Shown here: positions 4,358-61,270 of the stretch, piece after piece
Position numbering within the stretch: position 1 is the stretch's first letter
How the letters are laid out: each line of letters starts with the position of its first letter
Assembly: GCA_950059285.1 (NCBI GenBank)
Contig: CATLTV010000006.1
Coordinates: 1 to 61,270, forward strand
Origin: an uncultured Pseudomonadota bacterium
GTDB taxonomy: Bacteria > Myxococcota_A > Bradymonadia > Bradymonadales > Bradymonadaceae
Reading direction: 5' to 3'
DNA length: 61,270 nt
Notes under the pieces: model-generated
What the model was told of the DNA's origin: nothing
What the model saw: only the letters and a program-made list of their open reading frames with translations
The model's database searches: none
Made by a program: the position numbers and the translations under genes

Positions 4358-6151
4358 ATGTTGCTTTCTGATATCCAGCCTGGCTATCGCATCGCGGACC
4401 GTTATGAAATTCAAACCCCTCTTGGTGATGGTGGTTTCTCTCGCGTATACAAGGGGGTCCAGCTTGGTATGAGCCGTGCCGTGGCCATCAAGGTCATGAC
4501 ACCTCGTCTTGAACACCTCCCTGCCGAGCAGCACGATGCCGTGCGCCAAAACTTTGCGCAACGCTTTGAGCAAGAAGCACAGGTCCTCTCCCAACTTCGT
4601 GAACCCTCCACGGTGACCGTACACGATTACGGGGTTGAGCAGGGCGTCCCCTACATGATCCTTGAGCTGGTGGAAGGCACCTCGCTTGAGCAAATCTCAA
4701 AGACCTTCCCCATGGAGCCCATTCGCGTGTGCAAAATCCTCAAGCAGGTCCTTCAGAGCCTGCGTGAAGCGCACTTTCATGGCATCTTGCACCGCGATAT
4801 CAAGCCCGCAAATATCATGGTTTTCTCGCATATGGGCGAGCATGATCGGGTGAAGGTCCTCGATTTTGGAATGGCCAAAATCTACCATGGAAACCAGTCG
4901 ACAAGCCCCTCCGTCGAGCTTGATATGCTCGTGGGTACGCCGCGTTACATGGCTCCCGAATTGATTCGAGAGCCCGAGCGAGCCTGCCCCGCAACAGATC
5001 TCTATAGTGTGGGTCTTGTCTGCTACGAAATGCTCGTGGGCAAACCTGCCTACCCAGGAAAAGACACCACATCACTTATCTCTGCACAACTTGACCCACA
5101 GTCGATCAAGCTCCCCGAGGATTGTGATGTGCCTCACTCCTTGCGTGAAATTGTCGACGGTATGTTGCAAAAATCGCTCGCGTTCCGATGGGCCACCACG
5201 GACGATGTGCTTGATGTGCTTAATGAAGAGGTCTTGCCTGCGTTGAGTAAATCTACACAAGCACCTTCACTGTCGCTCAATGCGCCCAAGCCCTCGTTGT
5301 CGCTCAACCCCACAAAACCTTCGTTATCACTCAATCCTAAAAAGCCCTCGTTATCTATTGATCCGCCAAAACCTTCGCTGTCACTCAAGATGACAAAACT
5401 TCCTCCCGCAGCGCCCAGCGGACCTGCCAATGAAGATGTCACTGTTCCACGAATGACCGCCATTCAGGAGAGTGAGGCCAGCGAGGTTGAAGACGAAATC
5501 CTGATATCTTCCAATGTGATGCTCACTGAGGCTGATGAGGAAGAGTTTGTGCAAAGCTCCCTCACCATTCCTATCCCCGATGACATTCGACAGAAGCTTG
5601 TCTCCTCAAGTCAGGATGAGGATCATCGTGAGCAACTTGATCAGGCTGTGCAGGAAGCACAACAACAAGCCTACAGAGAGCAACAGCACTCCTCCCTTTT
5701 GCCCGGGCCTCCAAAACACAGCGTGGCTCGCCCGTTGCAATCCATGACAACCTCGCAGCCCATTGATGTCTCAAGGTTTCCTGACCGCAAGAAGATCGAA
5801 TCTGCACATAATGTCGCCGCCCCTCTTGATCCGTTGCCGCTAAGTTGGGATGACAACGAGGTTACTCCGCCGCCACCTCAGGCCGATAAACAGCAGAAGG
5901 TGATCGTGTTGGATGCTCCCTCGGGGCGACATCCTGCCGCACACTCAAATCACCCCTTGACGGATAGCCAACCTGCTCACAACATGAGCGCTGATAATTC
6001 GCAGAGAGACACATCCAATACACACGCCATTGATACGCCTGTAAATGCCACGTTGCTTCAACAGCAGCGCAAGCAACGCATGCTTCTTGTGGCTCTGGTG
6101 GCTGCGATTGTGGTCGTCTCTGTGATCATTGCGGTGAGGCTCCTGTCATAA
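4358..6151 (+). CDS. Tail-anchored Ser/Thr protein kinase
   Basis: A 597-residue eukaryote-like (PknB-type) kinase. The glycine loop GDGGFSRV is at residues 23-30, the ATP lysine is K45 (AIK), the catalytic loop HRDIKPAN starts at 145 (base D147), the DFG motif is at 169-171, and GTPRYMAPE follows. All key residues are present, so it should be active. After the kinase domain (to ~290) come five ~9-residue repeats of the type KPSLSLN (303-345), a long acidic/Gln-rich linker, and a single C-terminal membrane segment (VALVAAIVVVSVIIAVRLL) with no domain beyond it. The kinase therefore faces the cytoplasm and has no external sensor. It starts a likely operon with two GHKL-type genes 40 and 58 bases apart. 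Confidence 0.95.
   Translation: MLLSDIQPGYRIADRYEIQTPLGDGGFSRVYKGVQLGMSRAVAIKVMTPRLEHLPAEQHDAVRQNFAQRFEQEAQVLSQLREPSTVTVHDYGVEQGVPYMILELVEGTSLEQISKTFPMEPIRVCKILKQVLQSLREAHFHGILHRDIKPANIMVFSHMGEHDRVKVLDFGMAKIYHGNQSTSPSVELDMLVGTPRYMAPELIREPERACPATDLYSVGLVCYEMLVGKPAYPGKDTTSLISAQLDPQSIKLPEDCDVPHSLREIVDGMLQKSLAFRWATTDDVLDVLNEEVLPALSKSTQAPSLSLNAPKPSLSLNPTKPSLSLNPKKPSLSIDPPKPSLSLKMTKLPPAAPSGPANEDVTVPRMTAIQESEASEVEDEILISSNVMLTEADEEEFVQSSLTIPIPDDIRQKLVSSSQDEDHREQLDQAVQEAQQQAYREQQHSSLLPGPPKHSVARPLQSMTTSQPIDVSRFPDRKKIESAHNVAAPLDPLPLSWDDNEVTPPPPQADKQQKVIVLDAPSGRHPAAHSNHPLTDSQPAHNMSADNSQRDTSNTHAIDTPVNATLLQQQRKQRMLLVALVAAIVVVSVIIAVRLLS
5264..5393 (+). repeat. Five tandem PKPSLSLN-type repeats in kinase linker
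   Basis: Five in-frame ~27-base units encode KPSLSLN-like peptides with Ser/Leu alternation (last copies SLSID and SLSLK). They lie just after the kinase domain. The regular Ser spacing could make this a phosphorylated or protein-binding tail; that is inference. Confidence 0.85.
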
Positions 6152-44337: not shown

Positions 44338-47178
44338 CTACTTCTGTCTTTTTCTGCGGATGCCGAGGAAACCAAGGAGAAGCAACAAGATGGAGGTGCC
44401 ATTGATGGGTGATGAAGATGTTGTGGAGCACCCTTCATCCTGAAGGTTTGCAGGAGGCGTATCTTCAGGATTGGGTCCGTCTGCGGGGGCGTCAGGTTCC
44501 ATGGTGGTGTCCATGTCAGCGGTAGTGTTGTCCATATCCTCATCTGTGTGATGACCCATGTCCTCATCCGTCATGCCCATATCTGATGAACCCATGTCGG
44601 AAGACTCACCACCCATATCCTCCGCGATAATAGGTTTTTCAGGGAGCGCAAAGGTGATGATTGTGCCATGTGTTGCACCGACGGAGTCGCGTACTTCCAC
44701 ACGACTTGTATAGTTTTGCGCGTCAGCCGTGATGAGTTCTTCTGCGATATTAGCCTGAAGTGTGTCTTGCCATGGCGTGTCGAAGGTTCCGTCGTGGTCG
44801 AAGTCAAATCGAGCCTGTACAGGGTCCTGATCTGGATCTGAACTTTCAGAGGCATCCAGAGTCACGAGTGGGAGGGGGCTCTCTGCGGACCATGAGAACA
44901 GTGCTTCAAGCTGTGCGGTGGGCTCGCGATTTTCTGTAGGTGCATCGGCCTGGTACAGCGCCTTGTAGATATTGAGTTTGCCTGCTCCCCATTCAATTTC
45001 CTTGGGCGGATTGCTCAGGTTAAACACACGGTTAGCGTTTGTTTTGATGAGGTTAAGTAGCTCATCAGGTGTTCTTGATGGGTCTTGTTCAAGCAGCAAT
45101 GCAAGTGAGGCAGCGACATGAGGACCCGCACCGCTGGTGCCTCCAAATGTGGTGTAGTAGTTGCGGGTGTAGCCCTGACTGATTTGCTCGGAGGTGAATC
45201 CAACAGGAGCAAAGGGATCGTCAGGCGCGGTGATGTCCACGGCAGGAGCGCCGTCTTGACGAGGGCCACGGCCCGAGTAGTTTCTTAGCTCACCAGGATC
45301 GGAAGACTCGTCCCATGGTTGGTGATGCAAGCCACCAAAGGCCGCAACACCGATGGCGGAGTCGGCGGTTGCAGGGAAGCAGAGCGTCCCATGGTTGCGC
45401 ACGGGTTCGGTCCAGCCGACACCTTCACCCCAGCTTGTGTAGTAATCCGAGATACGTGCGGTGATCGTGGATGGTGAGGATGCCCCGGTGACACTGATTT
45501 TCCAGGTGCCTTGCTGTAAGGATACGTTTCGATCCTGGTTATAGATAAACACATAGATGATTGAGTTTCCACGGGTTGTGGCCTGATATCCGATCTGGAT
45601 AGCGGATGAACCAACGAAGGCGTTGGCCTGATTGCCTGATGATGTGGAGTACGTGTAATCCTGTCCAAGAGGTGAGGTGAACGTAAAGGTGAGGTCCTGT
45701 GTGCCAGTCCACTGAATGCCTGAATAAAGGCCGCTGTAGGGGTAACGTTGGTTGCCATACTGGTAGCCATTACCCACTCTGAACGAGAGCGTTGCGGGCT
45801 GTTCGGGAGTGATGTCCTTTTCGATATGTTTCTTGGCGATGTTGAGGTTGCCAAGTGGGTTAACCTGGCTGATGCCCTGTGCATGTGCAGCGTCCATGGC
45901 AGCTTCAAGGTTGGTGGAGCCATCATGTGGGCGAGTGAATGGGTTGGTCCATTCATGAAGTATGATGTTGGCGTTGTGTTCGACTGCTGTTTCGATGCTT
46001 TTGAGCTGGCTGTTATCATCGACGAGCCAGTTACTTGTACCGCTATCATCAAAGGGGAGTCCGACGATTTCAGCGTCAGGAGCGAGGCCATGGCGTTCAT
46101 GGTAAGGAGGTTGTCCGCCGACAAGAATGCCTGCCACGCTTGTGCCGTGACTGACCTGTGCGAGCGTGGATGGGCGGGTGACCTGAATCAAGTCAACGCC
46201 ACGGGTCCAGGTTGTGTTGCCCTTGGTGATGCTTTTGAACTTGGATGTCTTGAGCTGAATGAGTTTTTCAAGTGGGTCGAGCTGGTTGTTTTTGTTGACA
46301 TCATCGACGACAAAGATGGGCTCACCGTAAGCAGGATCTTGTTCATTGAAGGAGGGGTAACCCGAATCGCGAACACCGTTTTGATTCAGGTCGAGGTAGA
46401 GCCAGTCCTTTGAGGTATCAAGTTCGCTGTCGTTGTTAAAGACCACACCGCTCTGGTTGTAGGTGATGGCATCGAGCACAACGAGTGCCTCATGTGCTTC
46501 AAGTTGCCCATCGTGGTTGTAGTCTACAAAGTTAGAGCCATTGGAGGCGTATGTGCGGTCCTGGTCCTGATCAATCCAGTCGAAGACTTCGCCATCCGGG
46601 CGGAAGAAGGCGGGGTGAAGGATATCAAAGCCATCGTCGATGTCTGCGATGGTGATACCTTTACCTGTGACGCCAAGGTCGGGGAGGATATTGGCTTGAT
46701 ATGCACCAATGATTTTGGAGGTGTTTTCAGTGGGCTGTGTGAGGTCGGGCAGATAGAGCGGTTCGGCGAGGATAAGGGTTTTGAGTGAGATCAGATTTTC
46801 GAGTGCGTGCCACGGGATTTGTGCTCTGTAGACATTGCCTGTAGCGATGGGCTCACCTGACTCACTTACCGAGAGGAGGAGGACGCCAAAATTGGCGAGT
46901 TCTTGCACATCGCGGTCGGTGAGTTTGGATGAGAATCGAAGTGAGATGAGCGCGACCTCTTCATTGAGGGCAGGGAAGTGTCCAAAGAGGTTCTGGTGTG
47001 CGTTATGGTGGAGCAGCGCGTCGCGGTAGATAAAGAGCAGGGGGCTTACTTTGGTATGTTTACCGTGGATATGTTCAAGGGGCGTGGCGGTATCGTCCTG
47101 AGCCAGCGCGGTGGTTGAGAGCGTGGTAAGTGAGGATAGAATGCATAGCGTAGATATGAGGTATTTGGCAGGGCGCAT
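44338..47178 (-). CDS. Secreted subtilase with MYXO-CTERM-like anchor
   Basis: The ATG at 47178 (MRPAKYL) has AAGGAA 6 bases upstream and begins a signal peptide ending ALA; 946 residues. The S8 triad is visible: Asp181 in IADIDDGFD, His344 in SHGTSVAG, Ser682 in GGTSGAG. An insert with Asp-rich calcium-like loops (DQDQDR, DYNHDGQ, DVNKNNQLD) separates Asp from His. After the protease come a PKD-like beta segment, an Asp-Met linker, and a tail with Cys917, a hydrophobic helix and RRKRQK, matching MYXO-CTERM/GlyGly-type sorting signals. It is likely anchored to, or released from, the cell surface and digests protein outside. Confidence 0.92.
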   Translation of the reverse strand: MRPAKYLISTLCILSSLTTLSTTALAQDDTATPLEHIHGKHTKVSPLLFIYRDALLHHNAHQNLFGHFPALNEEVALISLRFSSKLTDRDVQELANFGVLLLSVSESGEPIATGNVYRAQIPWHALENLISLKTLILAEPLYLPDLTQPTENTSKIIGAYQANILPDLGVTGKGITIADIDDGFDILHPAFFRPDGEVFDWIDQDQDRTYASNGSNFVDYNHDGQLEAHEALVVLDAITYNQSGVVFNNDSELDTSKDWLYLDLNQNGVRDSGYPSFNEQDPAYGEPIFVVDDVNKNNQLDPLEKLIQLKTSKFKSITKGNTTWTRGVDLIQVTRPSTLAQVSHGTSVAGILVGGQPPYHERHGLAPDAEIVGLPFDDSGTSNWLVDDNSQLKSIETAVEHNANIILHEWTNPFTRPHDGSTNLEAAMDAAHAQGISQVNPLGNLNIAKKHIEKDITPEQPATLSFRVGNGYQYGNQRYPYSGLYSGIQWTGTQDLTFTFTSPLGQDYTYSTSSGNQANAFVGSSAIQIGYQATTRGNSIIYVFIYNQDRNVSLQQGTWKISVTGASSPSTITARISDYYTSWGEGVGWTEPVRNHGTLCFPATADSAIGVAAFGGLHHQPWDESSDPGELRNYSGRGPRQDGAPAVDITAPDDPFAPVGFTSEQISQGYTRNYYTTFGGTSGAGPHVAASLALLLEQDPSRTPDELLNLIKTNANRVFNLSNPPKEIEWGAGKLNIYKALYQADAPTENREPTAQLEALFSWSAESPLPLVTLDASESSDPDQDPVQARFDFDHDGTFDTPWQDTLQANIAEELITADAQNYTSRVEVRDSVGATHGTIITFALPEKPIIAEDMGGESSDMGSSDMGMTDEDMGHHTDEDMDNTTADMDTTMEPDAPADGPNPEDTPPANLQDEGCSTTSSSPINGTSILLLLLGFLGIRRKRQK

Positions 47179-47324
47179 GGAAAGTTCCTTGGGTAAATGA
47201 TCAATGGTGTACATGATGGTGATGCGTCACAACATGTGATGAGGTGTGTTGTGTTTAAGCACATCAACGCAGATGGTGTATGGATGAGCAATAATCAAGC
47301 CATGAAGAATTAAGAGGTTTTGTT

Positions 47325-48070: not shown

Positions 48071-48356
48071 TTTGAAAAGAAGAGTTGAGACGAGATACAA
48101 AAGTTTAGCTTGGTGTTCTGCACCGTGGTCGGCGTAGCGCCGCCCGAGCGTTGTACTTGTCACATACGGACACAAGGAAGACTGTTCCAGAATGCGCTGA
48201 TCCCCGTAGTACCCCTACTAGGGGGGGGTGAGCTGGAGCAACACCGCCATTCGCTGTTTCACCCCCCCCTAGTAGGGGTACTACGGGGGCGAATTCAGTG
48301 AGCCTTCCATGTCCCAGGTTATGTAGTAGACTTTCAGTCTCAACGCTTCTCTCAAA
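48071..48356. mobile_element. Possible small inverted-repeat element (MITE-like)
   Basis: About 22-base imperfect terminal inverted repeats enclose 286 bases with no gene and one large hairpin. No target duplication is clear. Other explanations: chance, or a two-part terminator. Low confidence. Confidence 0.25.
48202..48288. terminator. 31-base-arm hairpin with G8/C8 tracts
   Basis: Perfect arms CCCCGTAGTACCCCTACTAG plus a run of eight G's and TGA pair over 30 bases around a ~27-base loop. It lies between convergent genes and is unusually GC-rich. Confidence 0.65.
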
Positions 48357-48358
48357 TT

Positions 48359-48390
48359 AAAGAGCCCAGGTGTTTTCACCTGGGCTCTTT
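48359..48390. terminator. Intrinsic terminator hairpin
   Basis: 14-base arms AAAGAGCCCAGGTG and complement around TTTT, with T-runs on either strand side. It is 25 bases from the convergent propeller-like gene's stop. Confidence 0.85.
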
Positions 48391-48414: not shown

Positions 48415-49497
48415 TTAAAGAATCTCGGACTGGAACAGCACATTGCCGCGAGTGAAGAGCAGTCTTGCGTGTGGTGCCGTGTTCGAGAGGTAGACATGAC
48501 AGGATGGGGAGGGGAGTTTTGCAATGCAGAGTCTACGAGAGGTCACGCCAAGTCTGTAGGTGTGAAGAGCAGCGTCCTCGGCGATGTGAACGTAGATGAG
48601 CTCCTTGTCGGGCGCAAAGAGCAGCGTTGTGGCGGGTTTTTCAAGCTGGATGGGGGAGCCACCAGGGGGAAGCCCTGGTTTGAGTGGGACACGAATCAGG
48701 GAGTCCGATGTGGTTGCAAGCAGCAACTCATTGTGGTGGTGATTGAAAGCACCGCAGGAGATGGTTTCAGGTATAGTGCGCCCGGAGCGGCGGATATTCT
48801 TGGGTTGCTGTGGTGTGCCCTGATAGATTTTTCCTTTTCGTGTGGTGAGCACCAGCAGGTTATTTTGGATATCGGAGTGGATGAACACAATGGGCTCGGG
48901 GCGAGTGAGTTCGTGTGCCAGTGTGAGCTTATTTTGGTAGCGATCAAAGCAGAAGAGCTGGCCTTTTTCGGTCGCAAACCAGGTGTATGTGCTGTCATGG
49001 CAGATGGCCGAAACCTTGCGTTCTGACAGGTTAATGGCGTGGTGTTTTGCACGCTCATCACGCAGGTGAAGTGTGGTCCCATCGATCCATGCTGCGAGGA
49101 CATGATCCTTGGAGACAGTGAAGGGCGCAATGGTCCAGAACGACGCCTGATCAAGCGGTCTATGATTCATGATCAGGGGAGAGGACTCTTCAAGCAGGGC
49201 GTTTGGATCCTTTGTTGTTGGGGTGAGCAATTTATCGGCGGGTGACAGGTCGTCTGTGTCCGCCTCGCTCTTTTCAAAGGGGTTGATCTGTCGCAGGTGT
49301 TCAGCGTTGTGAGCTTTCAGGTTAATGGGGACGGTAGGTTTATTGTGGACATCATAACTTGGTTTGCGCGTTCCTTTTTTTTCCCAGCCAGGAGGTGGTT
49401 GTCCCTCCTGTTCATCGTTGGCCCTGTGGCTGACTCTGATGCGTTGTGCGTTGAGCATTTGAGTGGGGACTTTTCTTTTGGATGATGCTTGTGCCAT
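48415..49497 (-). CDS. Cytoplasmic propeller-like protein, unknown
   Basis: 360 residues with AAAGG before ATG. The first ~110 residues are basic, polar and probably disordered. The rest shows four or five repeats of beta-strand patterns (VSAICHDSTYTWFATEKGQLFCFD, LLVLTTRKGKIYQ, LLLATTSDSLIRV, LIYVHIAEDAALHTY) as in WD40-like propellers. There is no signal peptide. It is divergent from the large BRCT/HEAT operon and shares the propeller theme with its second gene, so it could belong to that system; this is inference. Confidence 0.78.
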   Translation of the reverse strand: MAQASSKRKVPTQMLNAQRIRVSHRANDEQEGQPPPGWEKKGTRKPSYDVHNKPTVPINLKAHNAEHLRQINPFEKSEADTDDLSPADKLLTPTTKDPNALLEESSPLIMNHRPLDQASFWTIAPFTVSKDHVLAAWIDGTTLHLRDERAKHHAINLSERKVSAICHDSTYTWFATEKGQLFCFDRYQNKLTLAHELTRPEPIVFIHSDIQNNLLVLTTRKGKIYQGTPQQPKNIRRSGRTIPETISCGAFNHHHNELLLATTSDSLIRVPLKPGLPPGGSPIQLEKPATTLLFAPDKELIYVHIAEDAALHTYRLGVTSRRLCIAKLPSPSCHVYLSNTAPHARLLFTRGNVLFQSEIL

Positions 49498-49883
49498 GAC
49501 AGGGACCTTTGGTGTGTAAAGCGAGCGTGCACGAAGGGATGCTCGAGGTCAGGTGATACGATGTCCGCATCTGCATATCGTCACGATATGGGGTGTGTTT
49601 AAGCGCTATTTTATTGAATAGTTGCGCGGGTGTTCAGAATATTATTCCATGTAAATCGTAGGGATAGGTGTTGTGGGTGGATAATTGATCGTTATTCGAT
49701 GATTGGCTCGTGTTGACAGCGTTTTGCTCGAGATTTAGGGTGTGTGCGTTGAAGTGAAGTTTAAGCAGGCCCTGCTTTTTTACGGCTGTAGAGGGGGAGG
49801 GAGCGTGCTCTGTTCATGCCATGATTACATTGCTTGTGTTTGGTTTTGTGTATGTGGTGTCAGTTATCAAGGAGGAGTAGATT
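49498..49883. promoter_or_regulatory. Divergent promoter region before the BRCT/HEAT operon
   Basis: 386 bases with no supportable gene. A TTGACA at 49713-49718 could be a -35 box for the rightward operon, but the -10 match is weak. An AAGGAGGAG ribosome site lies just before 49884. Confidence 0.4.
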
Positions 49884-52800
49884 ATGGAAGGAGTACGTCT
49901 AGAGGATGTGCGTCGTGCGTTAAAATCGCGAGATCCCGAGTTGTCTCGATTGGTGCGCGATCTTGCTGGAGTGGATCAGGTGCCATCCTCGGACACCGAG
50001 CCCGAGAAAGATGCACTGACCTACAATGCGTTCTTGAATGAGTTAAATAGCTGGCAGTTTTCCTACAAAAGCGATGAGGAGAAGAAGGCATACAGGACCG
50101 CTGGTTTTGAGGAGCTCATCAAGAACGAGCGTGTTCCTGAACGTCTCTGGCTTCATGAGGTGATCATGTACCTGTGGGAGAGCCCAGGTGCATATGAGCG
50201 TACACAGCTTCTGGAAATCATCGCGACATGTCCTCTGAAGTGGGGGCCATGGAAGGGGCTCAAGACCATCTTCAAACACTCCGAGAAAACGGGTGATGTC
50301 GAGCTGCTTGCAGCGATCGCGGCACGCATTGACTCCGAGCGTAGTGGGTACAGCTACAGTCGTGAGGTGTCGGGCGGCACAAAGACCTATATGGCACGTC
50401 GCGCATGGCGTTACTTGCGTCGTGTAGGCGAGCGTTTTCCTTCACGTTATGCCGATGTGGCCGTGGAGTTTATGCGCTTTTATCCAGAGGGTACAAACTG
50501 GCGCAACACATGGGTGATGAACCACATCATGTTCCACAACACCAGGCGTTACAACCAGTTGTCGTTTAGTTTCTGGCGTTTGCCCAATGACAAGCTCAAA
50601 GATCGCGCCTTTGTCGAGGCGTGGAAGCGTACACCAAGGCCCCTGTTTACCTTGCTTGAGCGTGCTCAATCAGAGCACGCCAGAAGCTTTGCTGTGGAGG
50701 CTCTCAAAACAGACTTCCGCACCACATTGCGCGAGGTTGAAGCAAGCTGGGTAGCACGCTTGATTGAGGTCAACTCAAGCACTGTCCATGAGTTTGTGGT
50801 CTGGATTCTTGATAATGTGCCCAAGTTTGAACAAGCCTCCTTCCGCGACATGGGCTTGCATGAAGGCGTCCTGAGGTTGTTGTACTCCCCTTCAAGCACG
50901 GCTCAAAGTTATGCGACAAAGTATGCGCGTACACATGCAAGGGACATCCCTGTGGATGAGCTCCTTGTGCTCGTCAATAGCTCTTCAAGTGAGGTGCGCA
51001 AACTTGCCGAGAGCTTGCTTCTTGATCATGACCCGAGAAAAGATGTCGGGCTTGACGCCTGGGGTGGGTTGCTTGGCTCAAGTTATGCTCATAACCTCGC
51101 TGTCCAGATGCTTACCAAACACTTCGGTGCAAATGAACTGACCTCGGACTGGTTCCGTGCACGCCTGTTGACCTCGGATTATCAGGTTCGACGCTACGCC
51201 ATGGAGCAGGTGCTCAAGGTCCATAGTACCAAGAGCCTGGGTTCAGCTTACTTCACCTCCTTGTTTGATGAGGAGCACCTCGAGAGTGATGTCGCAAGTT
51301 GGGCGCTCACTCAGATCCTTGAGGGCTTTGAGCTGACAAGTATTGATGAGGAGTTCTGGAGACGCTCTCTGATTCATCCCCAGTCATCTTATACTGTGCG
51401 ATCCTGGATCTCTTCCGAGAAGCTCAAGGCCAAATCCTTTGGTGTGGACTTCTGGAAGGCGCTCGCATATCAGCCAGATTTTGAAGAGGATAGCTGGATT
51501 CAATCCTTGAAAGAGAATGGTCCCAAGTGGGCATCACGACTCAGGTTTGATGAAGGAGTTGCTTCATTTGCTCGCGATTTGCTTGGTGATGTGCGCCAGT
51601 TCTCTCCTGATGAAGTTGGCTTTAACTGGTTGATGAAGCTCGTGGAACGCCTTGAGGCTCAGTACCACAACTTCGCCGAGGGCTATATGCTCAAGGCGAT
51701 GCTCCCGGCAGACTTTGCCCCCGAGTCGGAAGAGGAAGAAGCGACCACATCGTCAAGTGCTTCGGGTGCTGCGACCATTGATTTTCAGGAGGCCACGTTC
51801 CTCTTTACAGGCAAGCTCGCGACCATGACGCGTAAAGACGCTCAGGGTAAGGTCACGGGTGCCAATGGTAAGAATGCCAAGAGCGTGACCGCCAAACTTG
51901 ATTACCTTGTGGTTGGTGATGAGGGCTCTCCCCTGTTTGGGAACGGCAAGAAGGGCTCCAAGTTGTTGAAGGCCGAAAAGCTTCAGCAGGATGGTAGCGA
52001 GATGAAGATCATCAGTGAGACTGCGTTCTTGCAGATGCTCACTGGTGGGATTCGTGAGGTCGATGAAGGTAGCGTGGATGCTGGCTGCGAGGCGCTCTGG
52101 CAAATGGCTACAGGTGAGGGCAAGGCAAGTGATCCTCTGCGTAAGTTTGCGATCAAGTACATCTTGCATCACCACGAGTTGATCGCTCCTGCGTTGACCG
52201 AACGACAGGTCGACCCAGGTGCTGAAATTCCGCGTGAGTTCTTTAGTTGGGATCGCGTCCAGCCCGTATTTGCTGATGATCGTAAACCCTTGCGTGAGTT
52301 TGCGTTGACCATTGCGCGTTGGGAACTTGCACGATGGGCTCCTGATATGCAGGACATTCTCAACCTCTGCGAGCTTGAGTACAGGCATGTTGGCAAGTTC
52401 TTCAAGGAGGCTTTGCTCGCCAAGGAAGACGAGTCCACCAAGTATTACCGTCTTGGCTTTGAGCAACTTGACGTACAAGGTGTGTACAAGTTCTGTGAAT
52501 CTCTCAACGGACACACTCGCCAGATTGGTATGGCGTTGATCGCCAAGTACCCCGCGTTTGCTCTTCCTCAGGAACTGTTCAGGCTTACAGAGAGCCCTGA
52601 CCGCAAGCTCCGTGCGTTTGCGATTCGCACCATCTGGAAGTTGTATTCCAATCAGGGCGTTAGCCTGGGTTGGACCCCTGAACCTCGTAAGTCCATTGAT
52701 AAGAGTGGTGCCGAGGTGTTGGTGGAGCAACCTGATGCCAAGCCTGTCAGCAAGCCCGAGCAATGGCCTGCACCACAGGAAGAGCTCCACGAGTTCTTGC

Positions 52801-53141
52801 GTCGCATTCTTTACAGCATTCCTCCCACCAAGCCTTCTCGCGAAGAAACCGAAGGCCAGGGCTCTACGGAGCAAGGTCAGGATGGCGCTCAGCCCAAGAA
52901 GAGCGATTCATCAGTCAAGATCAGCGCGCGCAAAGCAAAGCGGTCCCTGATTCACGTGATGCGCGACCTCGCCATTGAAGAGCATGACTTTGCACAGGTG
53001 ATCGCACCTCTGTTGGCCGAGTTCATGGGGTCAAGAGGCAAGTCCGAGCGAGCTGCCTGTCTTGTGGCATTGACGCAGATTCGTGCAACGTGGCCAGATG
53101 TCTCCAAACTCCCTGATTATGTGCAGGTTTTGAGCGCTTAA
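49884..53141 (+). CDS. HEAT-like repeat protein with internal BRCT domain
   Basis: 1085 residues with a strong GGAGGAG site. Most of it is alpha-helical and repeat-like (for example ARSFAVEALKTDFRTTL, SSSEVRKLAESLLLDHD, YQVRRYAMEQVLKVH), as in HEAT/ARM scaffolds. Residues ~632-719 form a BRCT domain like the one at the end of NAD-dependent DNA ligases (ATFLFTGKLATMTRKDA, NAKSVTAKLDYLVVG, GSKLLKAEKL), followed by another helical array. BRCT suggests binding of DNA ends, poly-ADP-ribose or phosphopeptides. It has no enzyme motif. It is the first gene of a three-gene operon that runs off the window. Confidence 0.88.
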   Translation: MEGVRLEDVRRALKSRDPELSRLVRDLAGVDQVPSSDTEPEKDALTYNAFLNELNSWQFSYKSDEEKKAYRTAGFEELIKNERVPERLWLHEVIMYLWESPGAYERTQLLEIIATCPLKWGPWKGLKTIFKHSEKTGDVELLAAIAARIDSERSGYSYSREVSGGTKTYMARRAWRYLRRVGERFPSRYADVAVEFMRFYPEGTNWRNTWVMNHIMFHNTRRYNQLSFSFWRLPNDKLKDRAFVEAWKRTPRPLFTLLERAQSEHARSFAVEALKTDFRTTLREVEASWVARLIEVNSSTVHEFVVWILDNVPKFEQASFRDMGLHEGVLRLLYSPSSTAQSYATKYARTHARDIPVDELLVLVNSSSSEVRKLAESLLLDHDPRKDVGLDAWGGLLGSSYAHNLAVQMLTKHFGANELTSDWFRARLLTSDYQVRRYAMEQVLKVHSTKSLGSAYFTSLFDEEHLESDVASWALTQILEGFELTSIDEEFWRRSLIHPQSSYTVRSWISSEKLKAKSFGVDFWKALAYQPDFEEDSWIQSLKENGPKWASRLRFDEGVASFARDLLGDVRQFSPDEVGFNWLMKLVERLEAQYHNFAEGYMLKAMLPADFAPESEEEEATTSSSASGAATIDFQEATFLFTGKLATMTRKDAQGKVTGANGKNAKSVTAKLDYLVVGDEGSPLFGNGKKGSKLLKAEKLQQDGSEMKIISETAFLQMLTGGIREVDEGSVDAGCEALWQMATGEGKASDPLRKFAIKYILHHHELIAPALTERQVDPGAEIPREFFSWDRVQPVFADDRKPLREFALTIARWELARWAPDMQDILNLCELEYRHVGKFFKEALLAKEDESTKYYRLGFEQLDVQGVYKFCESLNGHTRQIGMALIAKYPAFALPQELFRLTESPDRKLRAFAIRTIWKLYSNQGVSLGWTPEPRKSIDKSGAEVLVEQPDAKPVSKPEQWPAPQEELHEFLRRILYSIPPTKPSREETEGQGSTEQGQDGAQPKKSDSSVKISARKAKRSLIHVMRDLAIEEHDFAQVIAPLLAEFMGSRGKSERAACLVALTQIRATWPDVSKLPDYVQVLSA

Positions 53142-53172
53142 AGGTTGTGAATTCATTACTTAAATAAGTTAT

Positions 53173-53202
53173 GAGGATGGCATCTTCTAAGGTGCCATCC
53201 TC
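53173..53202 (+). other. Hairpin between BRCT/HEAT and propeller/HEAT genes
   Basis: 10-base arms GAGGATGGCA and complement, loop of ten, without a T-run. It lies between two genes of the same operon, so it may be a processing or attenuation element. Confidence 0.5.
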
Positions 53203-53226
53203 CTCGAGAAGCAAGGAAATAAGTCG

Positions 53227-56200
53227 ATGTCGACCAAGAAACAATACTTGACATACAGAGGCTCCATAAAGTGCCTGATCAGCGATGGTGATACGCTGAT
53301 CTTTGGGACCACACACGAGGAGGGGCTTGATACAGGAGTGTATTTTGCTGAGCCTTCAAAGGGTGACCTGCATCATGTAGAGATGCCTGGCGCATATGCC
53401 ATGGTACATGATGGGAAGATGCTCTACGTCGCAGGTTCAGATCAGCACCTCTATCGCGGTGAGCTCAAGAAGAAAAAGCTCGCCATCATTGGGGATGCGT
53501 TTGATGATATGATCGTGGCGCTTGCTTGCGTCAGTAACTCCCAGCTTGCGGTCGCAAGTGGACAGACCGTGACTATCGTCTCGCGCGCCGATGCGAGCGT
53601 CCACCAGGTGCTCACTCTTGATGAGCCCGTCGCATCCATCACCACGGATAAGAGCGGTGAGTGGCTTGTGGTAGGTTCTGTGCGCGGCACGATGAGTGTC
53701 TTTGAGCGCGAAGATAAGCCCGAGTTCAAGCTCTCATCCAGCAAGAAAATTCATGAGGGCGCGATCTACTCTCTGTTGTTTGAAACAGATGAACTTCGCG
53801 TGCTCTCCACAGCCACAGATCAGAAGCTCCTGGTGACCCATGCGCGTGGTGAGTTGGAGCCCGAAGATCGTGGTGGCAAGGGGATGCATAACAAGCACAT
53901 CACCGCCATGATCCAGGGGATTGAAGGGCGCTTTTACACCACAAGCTATGACAGCAGTGTCAAGGCTTGGCCAGCAGGTCGCACAAACCGTCTGCCCACA
54001 ACACAAAAAGATGGTGTTGTGCGTTCCGAGCATCTCGCCTTGCTTCAGATCGGTGGAAAACCTCACCTCGCGACAGGATGTCTTGATAAGAGCATCCGCA
54101 TTTACGAGCTTGATGAAGAAGGTAAGGTCGGTGAGATCAAGGTAATGCTCCATGGCGCGATGGTCTGGGCAAATCATGTGCTTGGTTCAGGCGATCCTGT
54201 TGAGCGCCAGAACGTGCTGACCTCCTTGTATAACTTCCAGGATGCCGAGTCGCTTCATTTGATCGCTGATCGTATCAGCGCAGACAAGGATCACAAGCTC
54301 AAGGTGTATGCGACACAATTGCTTGGAAAAAGCTCTCATGAGCTTGCCAAGAAATTGCTCGAAGGACTCCTTACGTTCTCCGTGGATGATGTAAGTCACG
54401 CTGCATATATTGGTCTGCGTGATCAGTATGGCTATGAGTCGCTTTATCCGCTTGAGAAGGCGATTGACTCTGGTCACAAGGTCATTTGTGTGCCTGCAGT
54501 CACCGCTCTTGGTGGGCTTGCGCAAAAGAATGAAAAAGCTCTTGAGATGCTCATTCAAACCCTTGAGCGCGATCCTCAGGAGGCGCGTTACGAGGCGTTT
54601 AAACAGCTTGAGCGTTACTACGGTTCCAGGAAGCCAGACAGCGCATTGCTCGCGCTCAAGAGTTCACGTAATGACCTTGTGTGCTCTGCCATCATCCGCT
54701 TCTATCAGCTTGATTTACTGGGCGATGAGCGCGTCGAGGCTGCCGTGCGCAGGCAGCTTGAGTCCAACAACGAGAAGGCCCGTCGATATGCCTTCTGGGT
54801 GAACCTGACACGCTCACCAAAACTCGTGGATATTCTTCGTAGTCGTGATGCCGAAACAAACCGTCAGATCTTTGAGCTGGAGACCGCTGGACTCGCTGAA
54901 GACAAGCGCAAAAAAGGTCCTCCCAAGCAGAAAGCCAAGGAGGTCAAGGGGCTCAAGGAACAGGACTACGCGCCACTGTTTGAGGCGATGGCTTCGCGCC
55001 ACCTTGATACCTGTTTACGTGGTGCCATGGGGCTCGCGGTCCTTCAAGATACGCGCGCCTTTGGTACATTGTTGCAGCTCAGCCGCGAGAACAATGCAGA
55101 TGCGCGCGTACAGACCGCGCAGGCGCTTGAAAAGCTTGGCGATTTGAGGAGCTTGAAGCGTCTCAGAATGATGATTCGCGACGATCAGTCCTCTGTGCGC
55201 GATGCTGCATTTAGCGCGCTCACCAAGCTTGAGAAAGACGAGCCTTTGACCACTGCACGTGCAGGTCTCTCTGCTGCACATGAAGATGTGCGCCAGCGTG
55301 GTCTTGAGGTGCTCTCTCGCATGATGCGTAAGAAGACTCCTGTGGAGGGTGCGCTTGAATTGCTCGGGCGAACACTCAATGATCCTATCCCTAATGTGCG
55401 CTCCGAAGCGTTCAAGGTGTGTCTGAACAAGGACGTCTTTGAGAACTCCGAGGATGCGCTTCGATTTGCCAACGAATCTATCTTTGATGATGTCCGCGAG
55501 AAGATCCTCATTGAGGTTACCGCACAACATCAGGAAGACTGGGCATGGAACATGTTGCTTGAGTTCATGAATGACTCAAGCCAACGACTTCGCAAAGAAG
55601 CTTTCGAGACAGCGCTCTCCAAGGCCAAGAAAGAGCGTCGTATTCAATCGCTCTCCAGCGCGCTTGAATCGCGTTACACCGACGTCCGAATGTACGCCGT
55701 CAACGAGCTCTTGACTCGTCGTCTTGAAGATGTCGAAGATCTCCTCATCAAGGCGCTTGATGACGATGATCAGTCCGTGCGTAGTACCGCGATTCGTGCT
55801 CTGATCACTGCATCTGCGCGTCAACTCCTTGCTCAGGCGATGACCTCCAGCAAGCACGTTGATGTGCAGGTTCAGGCTGCGCGCGCATGTGCTCGCTATG
55901 GCGATGAGCGTGCCCTCAAGACATTGACGGATATCGTGAACGCCGAAGAGCCCAACGCCAAGGATAACAAGGGCCAGCATGACCTCTGGTTGCGTCACCT
56001 TGAGCAGGCCCTTGAAGGACTCGCTGAACTTGGCGACCCGGGCGCTCAGGATGCGATCATTCCTCACATCGAGAGCACGCATTCTTCTGTGCGTCAGGCT
56101 GCGGTCAGGGCGCTTGTGTGGACCTCGCGTCAGGATGCTCTTGGCACCCTGCGTGAAGTGATCAAGCACCAGGACAAGGCCGTGCAAAAAGAGGCCGCGC

Positions 56201-59200
56201 TTGGTCTTGCGTACTGGGGCGATTCTCTTGGCTCGTCCATCGTGTTCACCAACGCGACCTCCCAGAATGAGCAAATTCTTGCAAGTCTTGGGCTGTTTGC
56301 TGGTGCCGAGGAGCACCTTTACTCCTTCCTCGATAGCTCTGACAGAGCGTTACGCAAGCGCGTCTTTGTGATCCTGATGTTGCTTGAGTTGAGTGAAGGC
56401 GACCTCGTGCCAGACAAGTGTCTTGCGGCGATTAGCTCTGCCTTTGCTGATGTGCGTCTTCGCGCGGCACATGGTATTGAGCGCTTCTCTGATTCAGAGC
56501 GCTTTGCCGAGTTTGTGCTCGAGAACCTGAACACTCAGGTGGGGCAAAACATCAATCCTTACAGCCTCTCACGAGAGCTGATGGAAGATCTCTCACGTGC
56601 GCTCTCTCTTGGTTCCACGCCCGTGCGCATTCGTGCTGCGAGGTTGTGTGAAACCCTCTTTGGCTTCAATGAAGACAAGTTCATGCTGGAGTGGAAGACA
56701 TTCCATGAGCGTTTTGAGGATGAACTCAAGGAACTTAAAGAAAAACAAGAGGAATTCAGGAAGAATAATCAGGCTGAAACCGCTGACTCTGGTACGCTCT
56801 CGCGTGCTTGGTCCTACCTCAAGGAGCTTGCCAAAAAGGCGACGGGATCTGCATCTGACGAGTTTGAGGATGCCCTCAGAAGACTTGCATTTGGTGCCTA
56901 TGTTGGGCTCTCACGTGAAGGCAGCAGCGAAACCATCAAGTCAGGCGCTATTCGTGGTATGCACACCCTGTGCAAACATGATGACTCCTTTATCTTCGAA
57001 ACACAGCGTGTCCTGTTACTCGCCCTGGGTGACTCTCAACAAACTGTACGTGCGCTCGCCATGATCACGCTTCAGGAGCTTGAGATGGCCGTGAAACCTC
57101 TCGCGACCGAAGCCCTCGCCACAGGTTACTCCGATATGGGTTCTGCTGGTCTTGTCTTGCTCGCTGAGCAGGTTAGTGCTGCTGAAGGCGAGGCACTTCT
57201 TCAGGAGACCATGCTTACCAAGACCGATGGTCTTGAGTTTGAAGCGATGAAGCTTCTGCAAGCACGTCATGGCACCATCTCTGTCTGGTCTGGAGCGCTC
57301 TCATCAGTATCTCAAAACTTGCGCACCTCTGCCTTGAATGAGCTGCTCTCGCTCTGGGCGACTGAGCAAGATGCCAGGGATGCGCTTAGCACTGTGGCGC
57401 TCAAGTCCAAATACAAGGACGTGCGCATTTCTGCTGCGGATAACCTCGCGTATCGTACGGATCTTCCAGAGGACACCAAGGGGCTCATCTTCGATGTCCT
57501 CGCAGGTGAGAAACTTCAGGAAGGTTCTTATGAACAACGTAGCGCATCAAGCGCAATGATCGTGCTCGACCCCGAGAAAGCAGCTCCTCTGTTGCTTGAT
57601 CGCATCGACCAGGATGAGGCTGAAAACGCCGATGTGAGGGTTCTGATTGCTGCGGCTGGTCAAACGCGTCAGGTCTCCATTATTGACCGTCTCTATGGTT
57701 ACATTGAGGCAGATAAGCAACGTGACGCGGCATTTGATGCAGCGACCATGATCAGTGGTCATGACCAGTACATTCAAGACCCTGACGATAAACATCCCGA
57801 GTCTCGCGATGAGTGGATGAAGTCTCAGTTCACTCGCCATGATGAGATCCTCAGGCGCTTGCTTGAGCTTGCTTATCAGGTCGTGGACGCCCGTCGTGTG
57901 CTCAACTTGCTCAACCCTGCAAAGTGGTCCCTGACCGATGCTGTGGATGATATCTTCCCAACACTGCTCACGTTCTCCGATGAGTCCGTGCAAGAGAAGG
58001 TGACCGAGGTTGTGGGTTGGAGAGCGCGCAAGCGTGGTGGCAGCACCGACCTCCTCAAGAAGGCATTGACCACAGGAACACCTCGTGTGCAGTTCCTCGC
58101 AGCTGAAGGGCTCGCGCTCGCTGGTCAGAAAGATGGCATGAGTGTGCTCATGACTGCGGTGAACTTCATGGAGAGCTACGATGACCGCCGCCGTGCCGTC
58201 TTTGCTCTCGGTGAACTCGCAGATCCTACAGCACTTGAACTCCTGCTTGGACTCGTTCAGGACGAGGAGAGCGATCTTCGTCCTGCCGCTGCTCAAGCCC
58301 TTGGCCACCTGTCCAACAGCGAACGTGGTGACCAGATCTTCAAGATGCTCCTTGGCTTTGCCAAGTCGGATCACTCCGACCTCTCTCGCAGCGCACTCAC
58401 TGGCCTTCGCCACTTCAACACTCCTGATGCCTGGCGAGTCATTCGTAGCCATGCCGAGGATGAGTACAGTTGGTGGAGACGTGAGACTGTGGCTCAGTTG
58501 CTTGGTGAGTACAACGATCCTGCAAACATTGAGCTGCTCAGGCAAATGCTCTTCAATGATGACGACTACGATGTCATCCGCGCTGCTGCCGAGAGCCTCA
58601 AGAAGCTCTATGGCCCAGATAGCCTCGAGCCTGATTACATCTTTGTTCAAGCTGGACAGCTCTGGATTGAGCCCGCAGAAGGTGCTGTCGCGAGGTTGTG
58701 TGAGCGCGGCGAGGTCTCTCGTCTGCTCGAACTCCTCGCCAAAGTGAGCTTCAGCAGCGCAGAGCGTGATGTGGTTCAGCCTCTGGTGAACGCGCTGCTC
58801 TCTCGCGAACCTCTCCCCGTGGATGAGGTCGTGGACAAACTTGCTGATGATAATGTGCGTACCGCACTTATTGCCATCCAGATTGTGGGCCGTGCAGGTA
58901 AGGCTGTGGCCAAGAAACATGGCGCAAAGCTCAAGGCTGCAATGCAAACCACACATGACCTGTGGATTGAAAACTACAGCCTGATGCTCTCCAATCAGTC
59001 TCGCTATCAACAGGCATTCTATGATGTGAACAAGCGCTATGTCTTGTTGTGCTGGGCGTGTGGTCAGCTTGAGGTTGGGTTTGATGAGCTCGTCAAGGTC
59101 ATCGACCTCATTGATGTGCAAGCATCGGTCGACGTCAAGCAAGCTGCGTTGCTCTCCATGGCGATGCCATGGACAGGTAAGAAGGGTGTGGAATACATCG

Positions 59201-59649
59201 CCAAGCTTGTCACACATAAAAACGCTACGCTCCGCTCCATCGCGAGCGCTGCGCTCCAGGAGCTCGACAAGTCTCAGGCCAAGGCGCTGCTTGATCAAAG
59301 CCTTGAGGATGCTGTCATCTTCAGTCGCTTGATGATGAGCGTGAAGCCAGAGGCTGTGAACGCGCTCCTTCGTGAGCACGCTCAAAGCATCCACCTTCAA
59401 GGTGTAGTGATCGGTTACCTCGCTCAACAGGGCGATGAGACTGGTTTGCTGAAAATCCTTGATAGCCAGGAGCTTACAGATGAAATTCGCCACGGAGCTA
59501 TAGATGGTCTCGCTTCCATGGCTACACAGACTGCCATCGATGCACTGGCAAAACTTGGTAAAGATGAAGACGAAGACGAAGATCTGCGCAAGGCCGCATG
59601 GCGTGCTCGTCGACGCGCTATCCGCTCGCAACAAAGTGAGGTGTCCGCA
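53227..59649 (+). CDS. Giant WD40-propeller plus HEAT-array protein
   Basis: A 2141-residue soluble protein, stop at 59650-59652. Residues 1-~310 have WD40-like strands (TLIFGTTHEEGLDTGVYFA, GEWLVVGSVRGTMSVFE, RFYTTSYDSSVKAWPAG, HLATGCLDKSIRIYEL). From ~330 to the end there is a long HEAT-repeat array (DARVQTAQALEKLGDLRSLK, SSVRDAAFSALTKLEKDE, and many others), with lysine-rich inserts near 560 and a charged coiled-coil near 1165-1185. No catalytic motif is visible. It probably forms a large curved scaffold with a propeller at one end. AAGGAAA precedes the ATG. The next gene starts inside its stop (ATGA). Confidence 0.92.
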
Positions 59650-61270
59650 TGAGTCAAGAAGAGAACAACACTACAACTCCACAAGAAGAGCCCGAGGCGT
59701 CCACAAACACACGTGTGGAACTTGGCTACAAGGGCTCAAGTCAGATCGTTGATGAGTCCTCCTCTTCAACCACGCTCGCACTGTTTGGCAACACCAAACG
59801 CGCTGCGGTCAGCGTTCAGGGTAAGCTCAAAAAGCCGCTCGATTTTCGTCAGGCGATTGAGACGCTCTATCGTGTGGTCAAGAGCGACAACCGTCGCGCT
59901 CCCAAGGACCGCTCCGCTTATCTTGCGTACAAGCAAAAGAGCGCAGGTGCAGGACAAAACGCCTTCGATGCTCAACGTGAGTACTTTGAGTGGCTTGAGC
60001 AAAACGACCCCTCATCCTGGCTGGTGCTTGACCCCGTCATCACTGCCCATCCTGATCGCCTCATTTTTGAGGTCTTCAGCAAGGATGAAGGCTCCTATGC
60101 CGCGCTCTCCATTGATTGGGATGCCCTTGATCTCGACAAGGACCCAACCTATGGCACCACAAACATCGACTTCTCTGATGATCTTTATGACGCCATGAAG
60201 CGCATGAGGAGCTACCACACCACCTCGCTCTCTGTGGGCCAGGAGGCGGTCAGCGTCACCACCTCACCCGATCATCCCGAGGTCACCGAACGCAAGGTTA
60301 ACGTGCCAAACTCATGGCTGCGTGGCTTCCTTCAGGTTCAGGCCAGTGCGACGCTCCCATCGACAAAGGTTTCGATCGCACCGATTGATTTCTACAATAC
60401 CTTGAGGCACTTGCGTATGAACGCAGACCTCAAGAAAGGTGGCCGCGCCATTCGTGTGGAACTGATGCCAGGCGAGTATCCTCGCCTCGTGATTGAACCA
60501 CGCGATGAGGTGATTGAAACCGAACATGAGGTGTTCCGTGGTCGCGTCGCTCAGGTGATTCGCATCTGGGGCCGTCGCCGCTGGATGATGCTCACCTCCT
60601 TGCTCCCACTTGCCACAGATATCGAGCTTCATTTGCTTGGTACTGGCTTGCCTAACTTCTGCGTGCTTCGTTGTGGTCCCATGACATTCACGCTCGGTTT
60701 GACCGGGTTCACCACCGCAAACTGGTCTCAGGCCCTTGGTCTTGATACCTTGCTCCCTCGCACAGTCGAGTCTGATAAGAACCTCGACAAGGTGCTCAAG
60801 TTCCTCTCCAAATCCTGGTTTGCCTCTGCCGCTGACCTCGCAAGCTCTCTCAAGCTTAACCCCGCGCAGGTACGTCATGCCATCCAGGTTGGATGTCAAA
60901 ACGGTCAGATCATGTACGATATCGCACATGATGTGTACCGCTTCAGACCTCTGCTCGAGACAATTGACCTCGACGCGCTTGAGTTCCGCAATGCGCGCGA
61001 ACGACTCGCGCATGACCTCATCAATAACAAGGGTGGGAACGTCAAGATCCTGTCCAGAAACACCATCGCTGGGACTGGCGTGCAGTACGTCGGTGAAGTT
61101 CACGTCGAGGCTGACCGTCGCGCCTACCGCTGCGAAATCACCCTTGATGATGAAGGGCGCGTGCGACGCGTGGATGATACCTCGCCGTTTTATCGCAAAC
61201 ACCAGCTCAAGGAAGGTCCAAGCGCTCCTCTGATCGCTCTGCGACTCAAGATCGCTGAACTTCAAAAAGA
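59649..61270 (+). CDS. Winged-helix/SWIM-like protein, zinc ligands lost (partial)
   Basis: The gene starts at ATG 59649, overlapping the previous stop by four bases, and is still open at the window end (540+ residues). Residues ~375-435 have winged-helix character (KFLSKSWFASAADLASSLKL, then AIQVGCQNGQIMYDIAHDVYRF). The end, DDTSPFYRKHQLKEGPSAPL, follows the bacterial SWIM zinc-finger pattern CTC..F...L..GPC.H, but the four ligands are Asp510, Ser512, Ser525 and Pro527. So I infer a SWIM-like fold without zinc. The N-terminus is Thr/Glu-rich and disordered. Partner of the two scaffold proteins before it. Confidence 0.85.
   Translation, partial: MSQEENNTTTPQEEPEASTNTRVELGYKGSSQIVDESSSSTTLALFGNTKRAAVSVQGKLKKPLDFRQAIETLYRVVKSDNRRAPKDRSAYLAYKQKSAGAGQNAFDAQREYFEWLEQNDPSSWLVLDPVITAHPDRLIFEVFSKDEGSYAALSIDWDALDLDKDPTYGTTNIDFSDDLYDAMKRMRSYHTTSLSVGQEAVSVTTSPDHPEVTERKVNVPNSWLRGFLQVQASATLPSTKVSIAPIDFYNTLRHLRMNADLKKGGRAIRVELMPGEYPRLVIEPRDEVIETEHEVFRGRVAQVIRIWGRRRWMMLTSLLPLATDIELHLLGTGLPNFCVLRCGPMTFTLGLTGFTTANWSQALGLDTLLPRTVESDKNLDKVLKFLSKSWFASAADLASSLKLNPAQVRHAIQVGCQNGQIMYDIAHDVYRFRPLLETIDLDALEFRNARERLAHDLINNKGGNVKILSRNTIAGTGVQYVGEVHVEADRRAYRCEITLDDEGRVRRVDDTSPFYRKHQLKEGPSAPLIALRLKIAELQK

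Follow-up and report, generated by a model that had tools for sequence, protein, structure and literature searches.

A probable type XIII retron with a displaced template RNA gene in an uncultured Bradymonadales bacterium

Three giant genes at the right-hand end of a contig from an uncultured Pseudomonadota bacterium (GTDB lineage Myxococcota_A; Bradymonadia; Bradymonadales; Bradymonadaceae) raise the question of what kind of system is built from such large scaffold-type proteins. The window, i.e. the whole 61,270-nt stretch of DNA that was analysed, is the entire contig CATLTV010000006.1 (C6) of assembly GCA_950059285.1, which comprises 6.6 Mb in 441 contigs; the genome to the right of the window end is therefore unreadable. 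The three genes are long open reading frames on the positive strand, joined by an 85-base gap and then an ATGA overlap, and their coordinates agree with the single operon described in an earlier, sequence-only reading of the window. The system is very probably a type XIII retron in which the operon, ordered HEAT/BRCT, WD40/HEAT, clamp/SWIM and a reverse transcriptase (RT) beyond the contig end, is separated from its template RNA, the latter being transcribed from a gene of its own. This reading is built on the family-model identity of the proteins, the four-gene order in relatives, the anatomy of the RNA, its homology to RNAs lying in cis within other operons, its presence only in SWIM_XIII genomes of a phylum sample, and its displacement.

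Protein genes of the operon

The PADLOC models for type XIII are RT_XIII, HEAT-ARM_XIII, SWIM_XIII and WGR_XIII. Genes 1 and 2 match HEAT-ARM_XIII (1089 and 1758 bits) and gene 3 matches SWIM_XIII (578 bits), all nearly full length, and a part of WGR_XIII is matched by gene 1 as well (135 bits). The operon thus holds the pair of HEAT-ARM_XIII proteins and the single SWIM_XIII protein expected of a type XIII retron. The numeral is read as retron type XIII because the same PADLOC set holds RT_XIII, the model that best fits the gene after gene 3 in relatives (532 bits in the relative scored). Type XIII goes back to the retron classification of Mestre et al. 2020, as cited in PMC12548924 and PMC9252829, and one type XIII retron is listed in Variovorax (PMC11953036).

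In locus L035, from an uncultured Myxococcales metagenome-assembled genome, gene 3 ends at 4500 and a 429-aa RT with a YADD motif starts at 4508. Wherever the contig of a relative continues, as it does in 12 (L035, L037, L039, L040, L041, L042, L044, L045, L047, L048, L049 and L050), gene 3 is directly followed by an RT, so that the three genes, which the earlier reading expected to be conserved together, are kept in relatives in a four-gene order. The nearest solved structures to this RT are retron RTs, Ec86 being first (E 6.6e-36). As the assembly of the window holds no recognised RT, the fourth gene is inferred from relatives, and it is taken to lie in unassembled sequence because gene 3 should run on for about 80 codons past the point where the contig ends. 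On this reading the three giant genes make up the protein part of a type XIII retron that is cut by the contig end just before the predicted RT.

SWIM genes often adjoin MoxR and VWA genes, and the sequence-only reading had accordingly expected an operon continuing to the right with a MoxR/AAA+ ATPase and a VWA partner. The contig ends where such genes were sought, and relatives carry the RT there; continuation with an enzyme was thus correctly anticipated, the kind of enzyme was not. Genes after the RT differ by genome (a kinase, a TSP_3 repeat protein, a protein of no family), with no MoxR or VWA among them. A conflict system of the MoxR/VWA-SWIM type, with the hairpin upstream of the operon (described below) unrelated to it, would account for the SWIM_XIII homologue. 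It is hardly credible given an RT rather than an ATPase after gene 3 in every readable relative, the varied downstream genes, and a hairpin RNA confined to SWIM_XIII genomes in the phylum sample.

The AlphaFold2 (AF2) model of gene 1 is a helical repeat (predicted local distance difference test, pLDDT, 81) with a BRCT-like insert within the solenoid. The BRCT domain claimed earlier is weak in Pfam (E 0.0018, under the cut-off), is found by LigA models at 2.6e-9 and clearly matches RFC1/LigA structures. A Foldseek search with the gene 1 model returned HEAT solenoids only and no hidden enzyme. Gene 2 carries a clear WD40 propeller and HEAT array (Pfam HEAT_2 E 2.4e-71), as had been predicted. 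Elsewhere the modules are distributed differently: in family f7 (L047, L048 and L049) the BRCT sits in gene 2 rather than gene 1, and in L049 the WD40 part is a separate gene ahead of the HEAT gene.

Gene 3 is predicted to contain a sliding clamp of PCNA fold. The fold was read from the predicted model of a relative 61% identical to it (pLDDT 82; predicted template-modelling score 0.79), in which residues 48-346 form the two-domain fold of a PCNA monomer (Z 16.0 versus 2ix2_B; 212/245 residues; root-mean-square deviation 2.7 A; about 11% identity); the best 50 rows of a structure search with this model were all PCNA. The PCNA fold is followed in the model by a winged helix, a SWIM-like region and a WGR-like tail, the last weak in two relatives (Pfam WGR E 0.08-0.11) and missing from the window copy because the contig ends. 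No relative of gene 3 was found in phage records. The SWIM assignment made earlier stands at family level, with the qualification that the window copy has lost its zinc ligands. The ligands CxC...CxH are replaced by DTS...GPSAP in the window and in genomes G007 and G053, and by CTS...GPTAP in G208, and are intact in the other relatives examined. This loss, with similar replacements (CxC by TS; CxH by SxP or TxP), apparently occurred more than once. A tie between ligand loss and displacement of the RNA was considered and rejected, as most of the clade with displaced RNA keeps the ligands and G208, with its RNA in cis, has lost them.

The retron RNA

A retron, probably an antiphage device that produces small hybrids of RNA and DNA, requires an msr-msd RNA. 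The 5' leader of gene 1 was rejected as its site: no conserved element was found in it, and the corresponding leaders in L041-L043, with about 30-40 nt after a TTGAC element, look too short for the RNA. A long-hairpin scan of the window identified a 31-bp stem with a 27-nt loop at 48201-48289 (fold z -10.3 as RNA and -10.0 as DNA), and around it all parts of an msr-msd RNA, i.e. a1/a2 ends, a candidate branch G and an msd hairpin, are found at 48078-48350 (Table 1; the msr/msd boundaries are putative). The sequence-only reading overlooked this gene. The window a1 pairs best with its own a2 (-24.4 kcal/mol, versus -19.3 for the best a2 of another genome). No Rfam family was found for the non-coding RNA (ncRNA).

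The hairpin loop recurs near the operon in G053. A pattern based on the loop matches 7 of 58 relatives, once each except for two matches in G031, and a gene 2 homologue is present in all seven. When eight copies are aligned over 250 columns, a 70-pair structure is evident in which 30 pairs have changed on both sides. A covariance model (R1), which matches the window at 48098-48344 with 218.8 bits, found 17 copies in the fetched loci. Among these 17 homologues 96.3% of cells are paired, 49/70 pairs have changed on both sides, and there are 254 double-change cells versus 65 in shuffles (0/500 shuffles reach this); as that alignment was fitted to the model its counts lean towards structure, which is not so for the eight-copy alignment.

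Several features point to function as a retron template. The letters of a1 and a2 vary by genome yet pair within each (weakly in G049), and UAGC with the candidate branch G follows a1 in most copies, UGAAC taking its place in G029 and G051. The second msr hairpin is conserved as far as Alphaproteobacteria. Departures from the commonest pair are G-U in only 3/203 cases in the long msd stem versus 12/37 in the msr stems; the msd stems, being nearly without G-U, therefore appear to be under selection as DNA, which is what one would expect where the RNA is reverse-transcribed. A terminator-like hairpin follows the ncRNA in 12 of the 13 loci scanned, and in nine of them none of 100 shuffles was as good.

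R1 also matches the gap between the SWIM and RT genes in G208 (114 bits), G111 (49), a Methylobacterium bullatum plasmid (44), G010 (33), contig C108 of G029 (33) and G069 (29), which marks the space between SWIM and RT as the usual place of the RNA. Of 189 phylum genomes, 12 yield the RNA in a search with R1, and all 12 are among the 24 with SWIM_XIII (P 8.9e-13, an upper view of the strength of association since the genomes are related). A genome-wide R1 search misses most cis RNAs, which score low and were found by searching gaps directly, and an R1-negative genome is not evidence of absence.

The same data bear on whether the hairpin is a mobile or structural DNA element, e.g. a palindromic repeat or attC-like site, near the operon by chance. 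Such an element could well be a long, nearly perfect palindrome whose location differs between genomes, as is the case here. The proposal is nevertheless very improbable: there is usually one copy per genome, the msr hairpins are conserved outside the palindrome, the element is homologous to the SWIM-RT RNA of cis loci, and it is exclusive to SWIM_XIII genomes in the 189-genome sample, at the P value given above.

Individual copies add further observations. In G043 a DNA query finds the ncRNA at a contig end, though R1 did not; this contig (C109:1-145; L165) begins inside the retron RNA gene, and long perfect hairpins may break assemblies and hide such RNA genes. A solitary RNA in G024 (C3:57326-57552; L170; 38.6 bits) shows the complete anatomy of a retron RNA, with long a1/a2 arms, a GGGCGGCGGATCGCCGTCC hairpin and a GC-rich msd stem.

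Detachment of the RNA gene

The RNA gene of the window stands outside the SWIM-RT gap: gene 1 begins 1.5 kb downstream of it, beyond an antisense gene. In the relatives of this operon the start of the RT gene abuts or overlaps the SWIM stop codon, so that the gap is closed across the clade. The one exception is G031, where the 276-nt gap (L037, 6890-7170) holds direct repeats only and no match to the RNA model. The RT tree unites in one clade (100/98) the 14 RTs whose loci lack an RNA-bearing gap, and the sister group of this clade holds G208, in which the RNA is still in the gap. The cis arrangement occurs in G208, G111, G010, contig C108 of G029, G069 and Methylobacterium, and is not known as a formal criterion of type XIII. 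With gene content and RNA family unchanged, an RNA outside the SWIM-RT gap marks a variant of type XIII.

Positions of the displaced RNA genes vary markedly. In G009 the RNA shares a contig with gene 1 and precedes it by about 0.8 kb; in G053 it is about 0.9 kb downstream of the RT, and in G049 a single contig holds RNA and operon 100.9 kb apart. Contig geometry places it at least 81.8 kb from the operon in G029, at least 47.1 kb in G051 and at least 11 kb in G197 (where the extent of the operon is approximate); in G011, G021, G031, G043 and G112 contig ends prevent the distance from being read. Only in G000 and G009 does an operon gene stand alongside a displaced RNA gene. A reading in which every genome has an unlinked RNA does not hold, as gene 1 of G009 shares a contig with the RNA and contig ends hide the linkage in others. 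The conclusion drawn is that the RNA gene turned autonomous and afterwards moved; the simplest account has autonomy arising a single time, in the ancestor of the clade.

Copy number also varies. G031 has two copies on different contigs and G035 three in tandem, the latter (L144, contig C234, 5806-6678; 9 kb to the nearest contig end) with differing msd stems and a common msr; in G035 several RNAs apparently serve one RT. A further type XIII system, whose gap is normal, is present in both G029 and G035, and in G029 this gap has an R1 match. The extra copies in G035 and G031, and a window RNA away from the usual place, are what would be seen if the operon were a genuine type XIII retron and the displaced RNAs were degenerate or decoy copies of a functional RNA elsewhere, e.g. 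inside the operon. Strong covariation, maintained a1/a2 pairing and terminators belonging to the displaced RNAs themselves argue otherwise, and within the operons of the clade no second RNA candidate was found, nor is there room for one between SWIM and RT; the decoy explanation is considered improbable.

Some findings weigh against a detached template RNA in a functional retron. The window RNA is displaced rather than truly unlinked, and the distances in other genomes rely on correct binning, except in G049, where one contig holds both. Searches of the window's own assembly with a Pfam model and by protein comparison found no RT. R1 did not find the ncRNA in G007, G043 and G050, relatives in the clade with displaced RNA that have fragmented assemblies, and the 3.2-kb locus around the G024 RNA holds no RT, SWIM or other XIII gene (G024 is 65% complete). 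A catalytic effector domain is seen in none of the three proteins, and both the production of multicopy single-stranded DNA (msDNA) and phage defence are predictions drawn from the genes and the RNA.

Table 1. Positions of the retron-related features and the intervening gene in the window
Feature	Position	Strand	Basis or remarks
Whole msr-msd ncRNA, 270 nt	48078-48350	+	a1/a2 ends, UAGC branch site, msd hairpin
a1 arm, 5' inverted repeat	48078-48106	+	AGAAG-AGTTGAGAC pairs with GTCTCAAC-G-CTTCT of a2
msr	48107-48171	+	candidate branch G 48108 in UAGC, then two small hairpins (GGTG..GCACC; CGGCGtagCGCCG)
msd, ~156 nt	48172-48327	+	base stem AAGGAAG..CTTCC and 31-bp hairpin 48201-48289, conserved loop CAACnnCGCCATTCG
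a2 arm, 3' inverted repeat	48328-48350	+	pairing with a1
Rho-independent terminator of ncRNA gene	48359-48390	+	14-bp stem, U-rich tail
Antisense gene between ncRNA gene and operon, unrelated	48415-49497	-	360 aa, not confidently assigned to a family
Candidate -35 box TTGACA of operon	49713-49718	+	read from sequence; putative
Gene 1: HEAT solenoid with BRCT, retron type XIII HEAT-ARM protein	49884-53141	+	1085 aa
BRCT domain of gene 1 (residues 634-721), RFC1/LigA type	51783-52046	+	Pfam, LigA models, structures, AF2 model
Gene 2: WD40 propeller and long HEAT array	53227-59652	+	2141 aa
Gene 3: SWIM_XIII protein, 3' end cut by contig end	59649-61268	+	540 of ~618 aa, no stop
Predicted PCNA-like sliding-clamp domain of gene 3	59808-60704	+	alignment to residues 48-346 of relative in L035
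SWIM-like region, zinc ligands lost	61109-61260	+	translation and comparison with relatives

None of the other genomes compared has a counterpart of the antisense gene next to its ncRNA. A TTGAC element 5' of gene 1 was seen in 6 of 7 genomes compared by eye; the promoter scan did not report the TTGACA box in the window. Farther to the left, the window encodes on the negative strand (44338-47214) a 958-aa subtilase that matches PKD weakly and has a repetitive linker rich in D, M, G and S, which precedes a C-terminal hydrophobic stretch and a basic tail.

Proposed function and comparison with known systems

An antiphage function can be inferred for this system, and the earlier description of a DNA-linked scaffold operon, probably a conflict system, appears to have been sound. 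In the proposed mechanism, RT made from the operon would bind the msr, prime at the branch G and make from the msd a DNA hairpin, about 150 nt long, kept linked to the RNA (the msDNA). The large proteins may form a holding complex on HEAT/WD40 scaffolds, in which binding to DNA ends or to the duplex of the msDNA would fall to the PCNA-like clamp with its winged helix and WGR-like tail, together with the RFC1-like BRCT. A phage that alters the msDNA or makes DNA ends might then cause the complex to be released or rearranged, which could bring about a lethal or replication-blocking state with arrest of cell or phage DNA replication (abortive infection). The effector step, the least certain part of the mechanism, is tentative and stays a proposal because no toxin-capable enzyme was recognised.

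Repair-type modules (the PCNA-like clamp, RFC1-like BRCT and WGR-like tail) and the lack of a visible toxic enzyme in the three proteins could equally suit a genuine retron with a housekeeping or social role, e.g. in DNA repair or development. Patchy presence (24 of 189 genomes) and the two type XIII systems of some genomes fit accessory defence better, and retrons studied to date are described as bacterial immune systems (PMC12548924). A role outside phage defence is judged rather unlikely.

On balance, and by a modest measure of confidence, a clade of type XIII retrons with trans-acting RNA is envisaged, each with one RT operon that is served by one, two or three independent msr-msd genes at any place in the chromosome, and, as the sensing/effector complex, a PCNA-like clamp protein (clamp, winged helix, SWIM and WGR) with an RFC1-like BRCT/HEAT protein. 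If this is true, such a retron would borrow the logic of the replication clamp. Since retron searches expect an RT with an adjacent RNA, the detached-RNA clade would be scored as RNA-less and missed by adjacency-based searches. The covariance family supplies a template for type XIII msDNA that can be put to the test, a trans-acting msr-msd occurring naturally in several copies per genome would be of direct use for retron engineering, and a PCNA-fold protein beside a retron RT makes a specific, testable proposal for DNA sensing by the uncharacterised type XIII.

The kind is known (a type XIII retron). As far as the literature shows, earlier descriptions appear to be lacking both for the detached RNA with its covariance family and for the clamp-fold protein, the source paper of type XIII lying outside the literature searched. 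That search, which most subscription papers also fell outside, found neither retrons combined with PCNA nor naturally unlinked retron RNAs.

Among known systems, classic myxobacterial retrons such as Mx162 likewise combine a short msr with one long msd hairpin of comparable length (about 150-160 nt). Unlike the displaced RNA here, the msr-msd of Mx162 immediately precedes the RT gene. The RT is homologous to that of retron Ec86 (Eco1) across the catalytic domain, at the E value given above. Ec86 has a nucleoside deoxyribosyltransferase-like effector, and none is recognised in the three proteins described here. With PCNA and other sliding clamps, gene 3 shares the monomer fold over residues 48-346 (Z 16), a likeness known from the model; it differs in its low identity (about 11%) and in its fusion to winged-helix, SWIM-like and WGR-like parts. 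The closest known system is the type XIII retron itself, which agrees in the set and order of its genes, in its RNA family and, judging from relatives, in the family of its RT. The differences are that here the RNA gene is autonomous and displaced rather than between SWIM and RT, that the SWIM and RT genes of relatives touch or overlap, and that the SWIM zinc ligands are lost in this genome.

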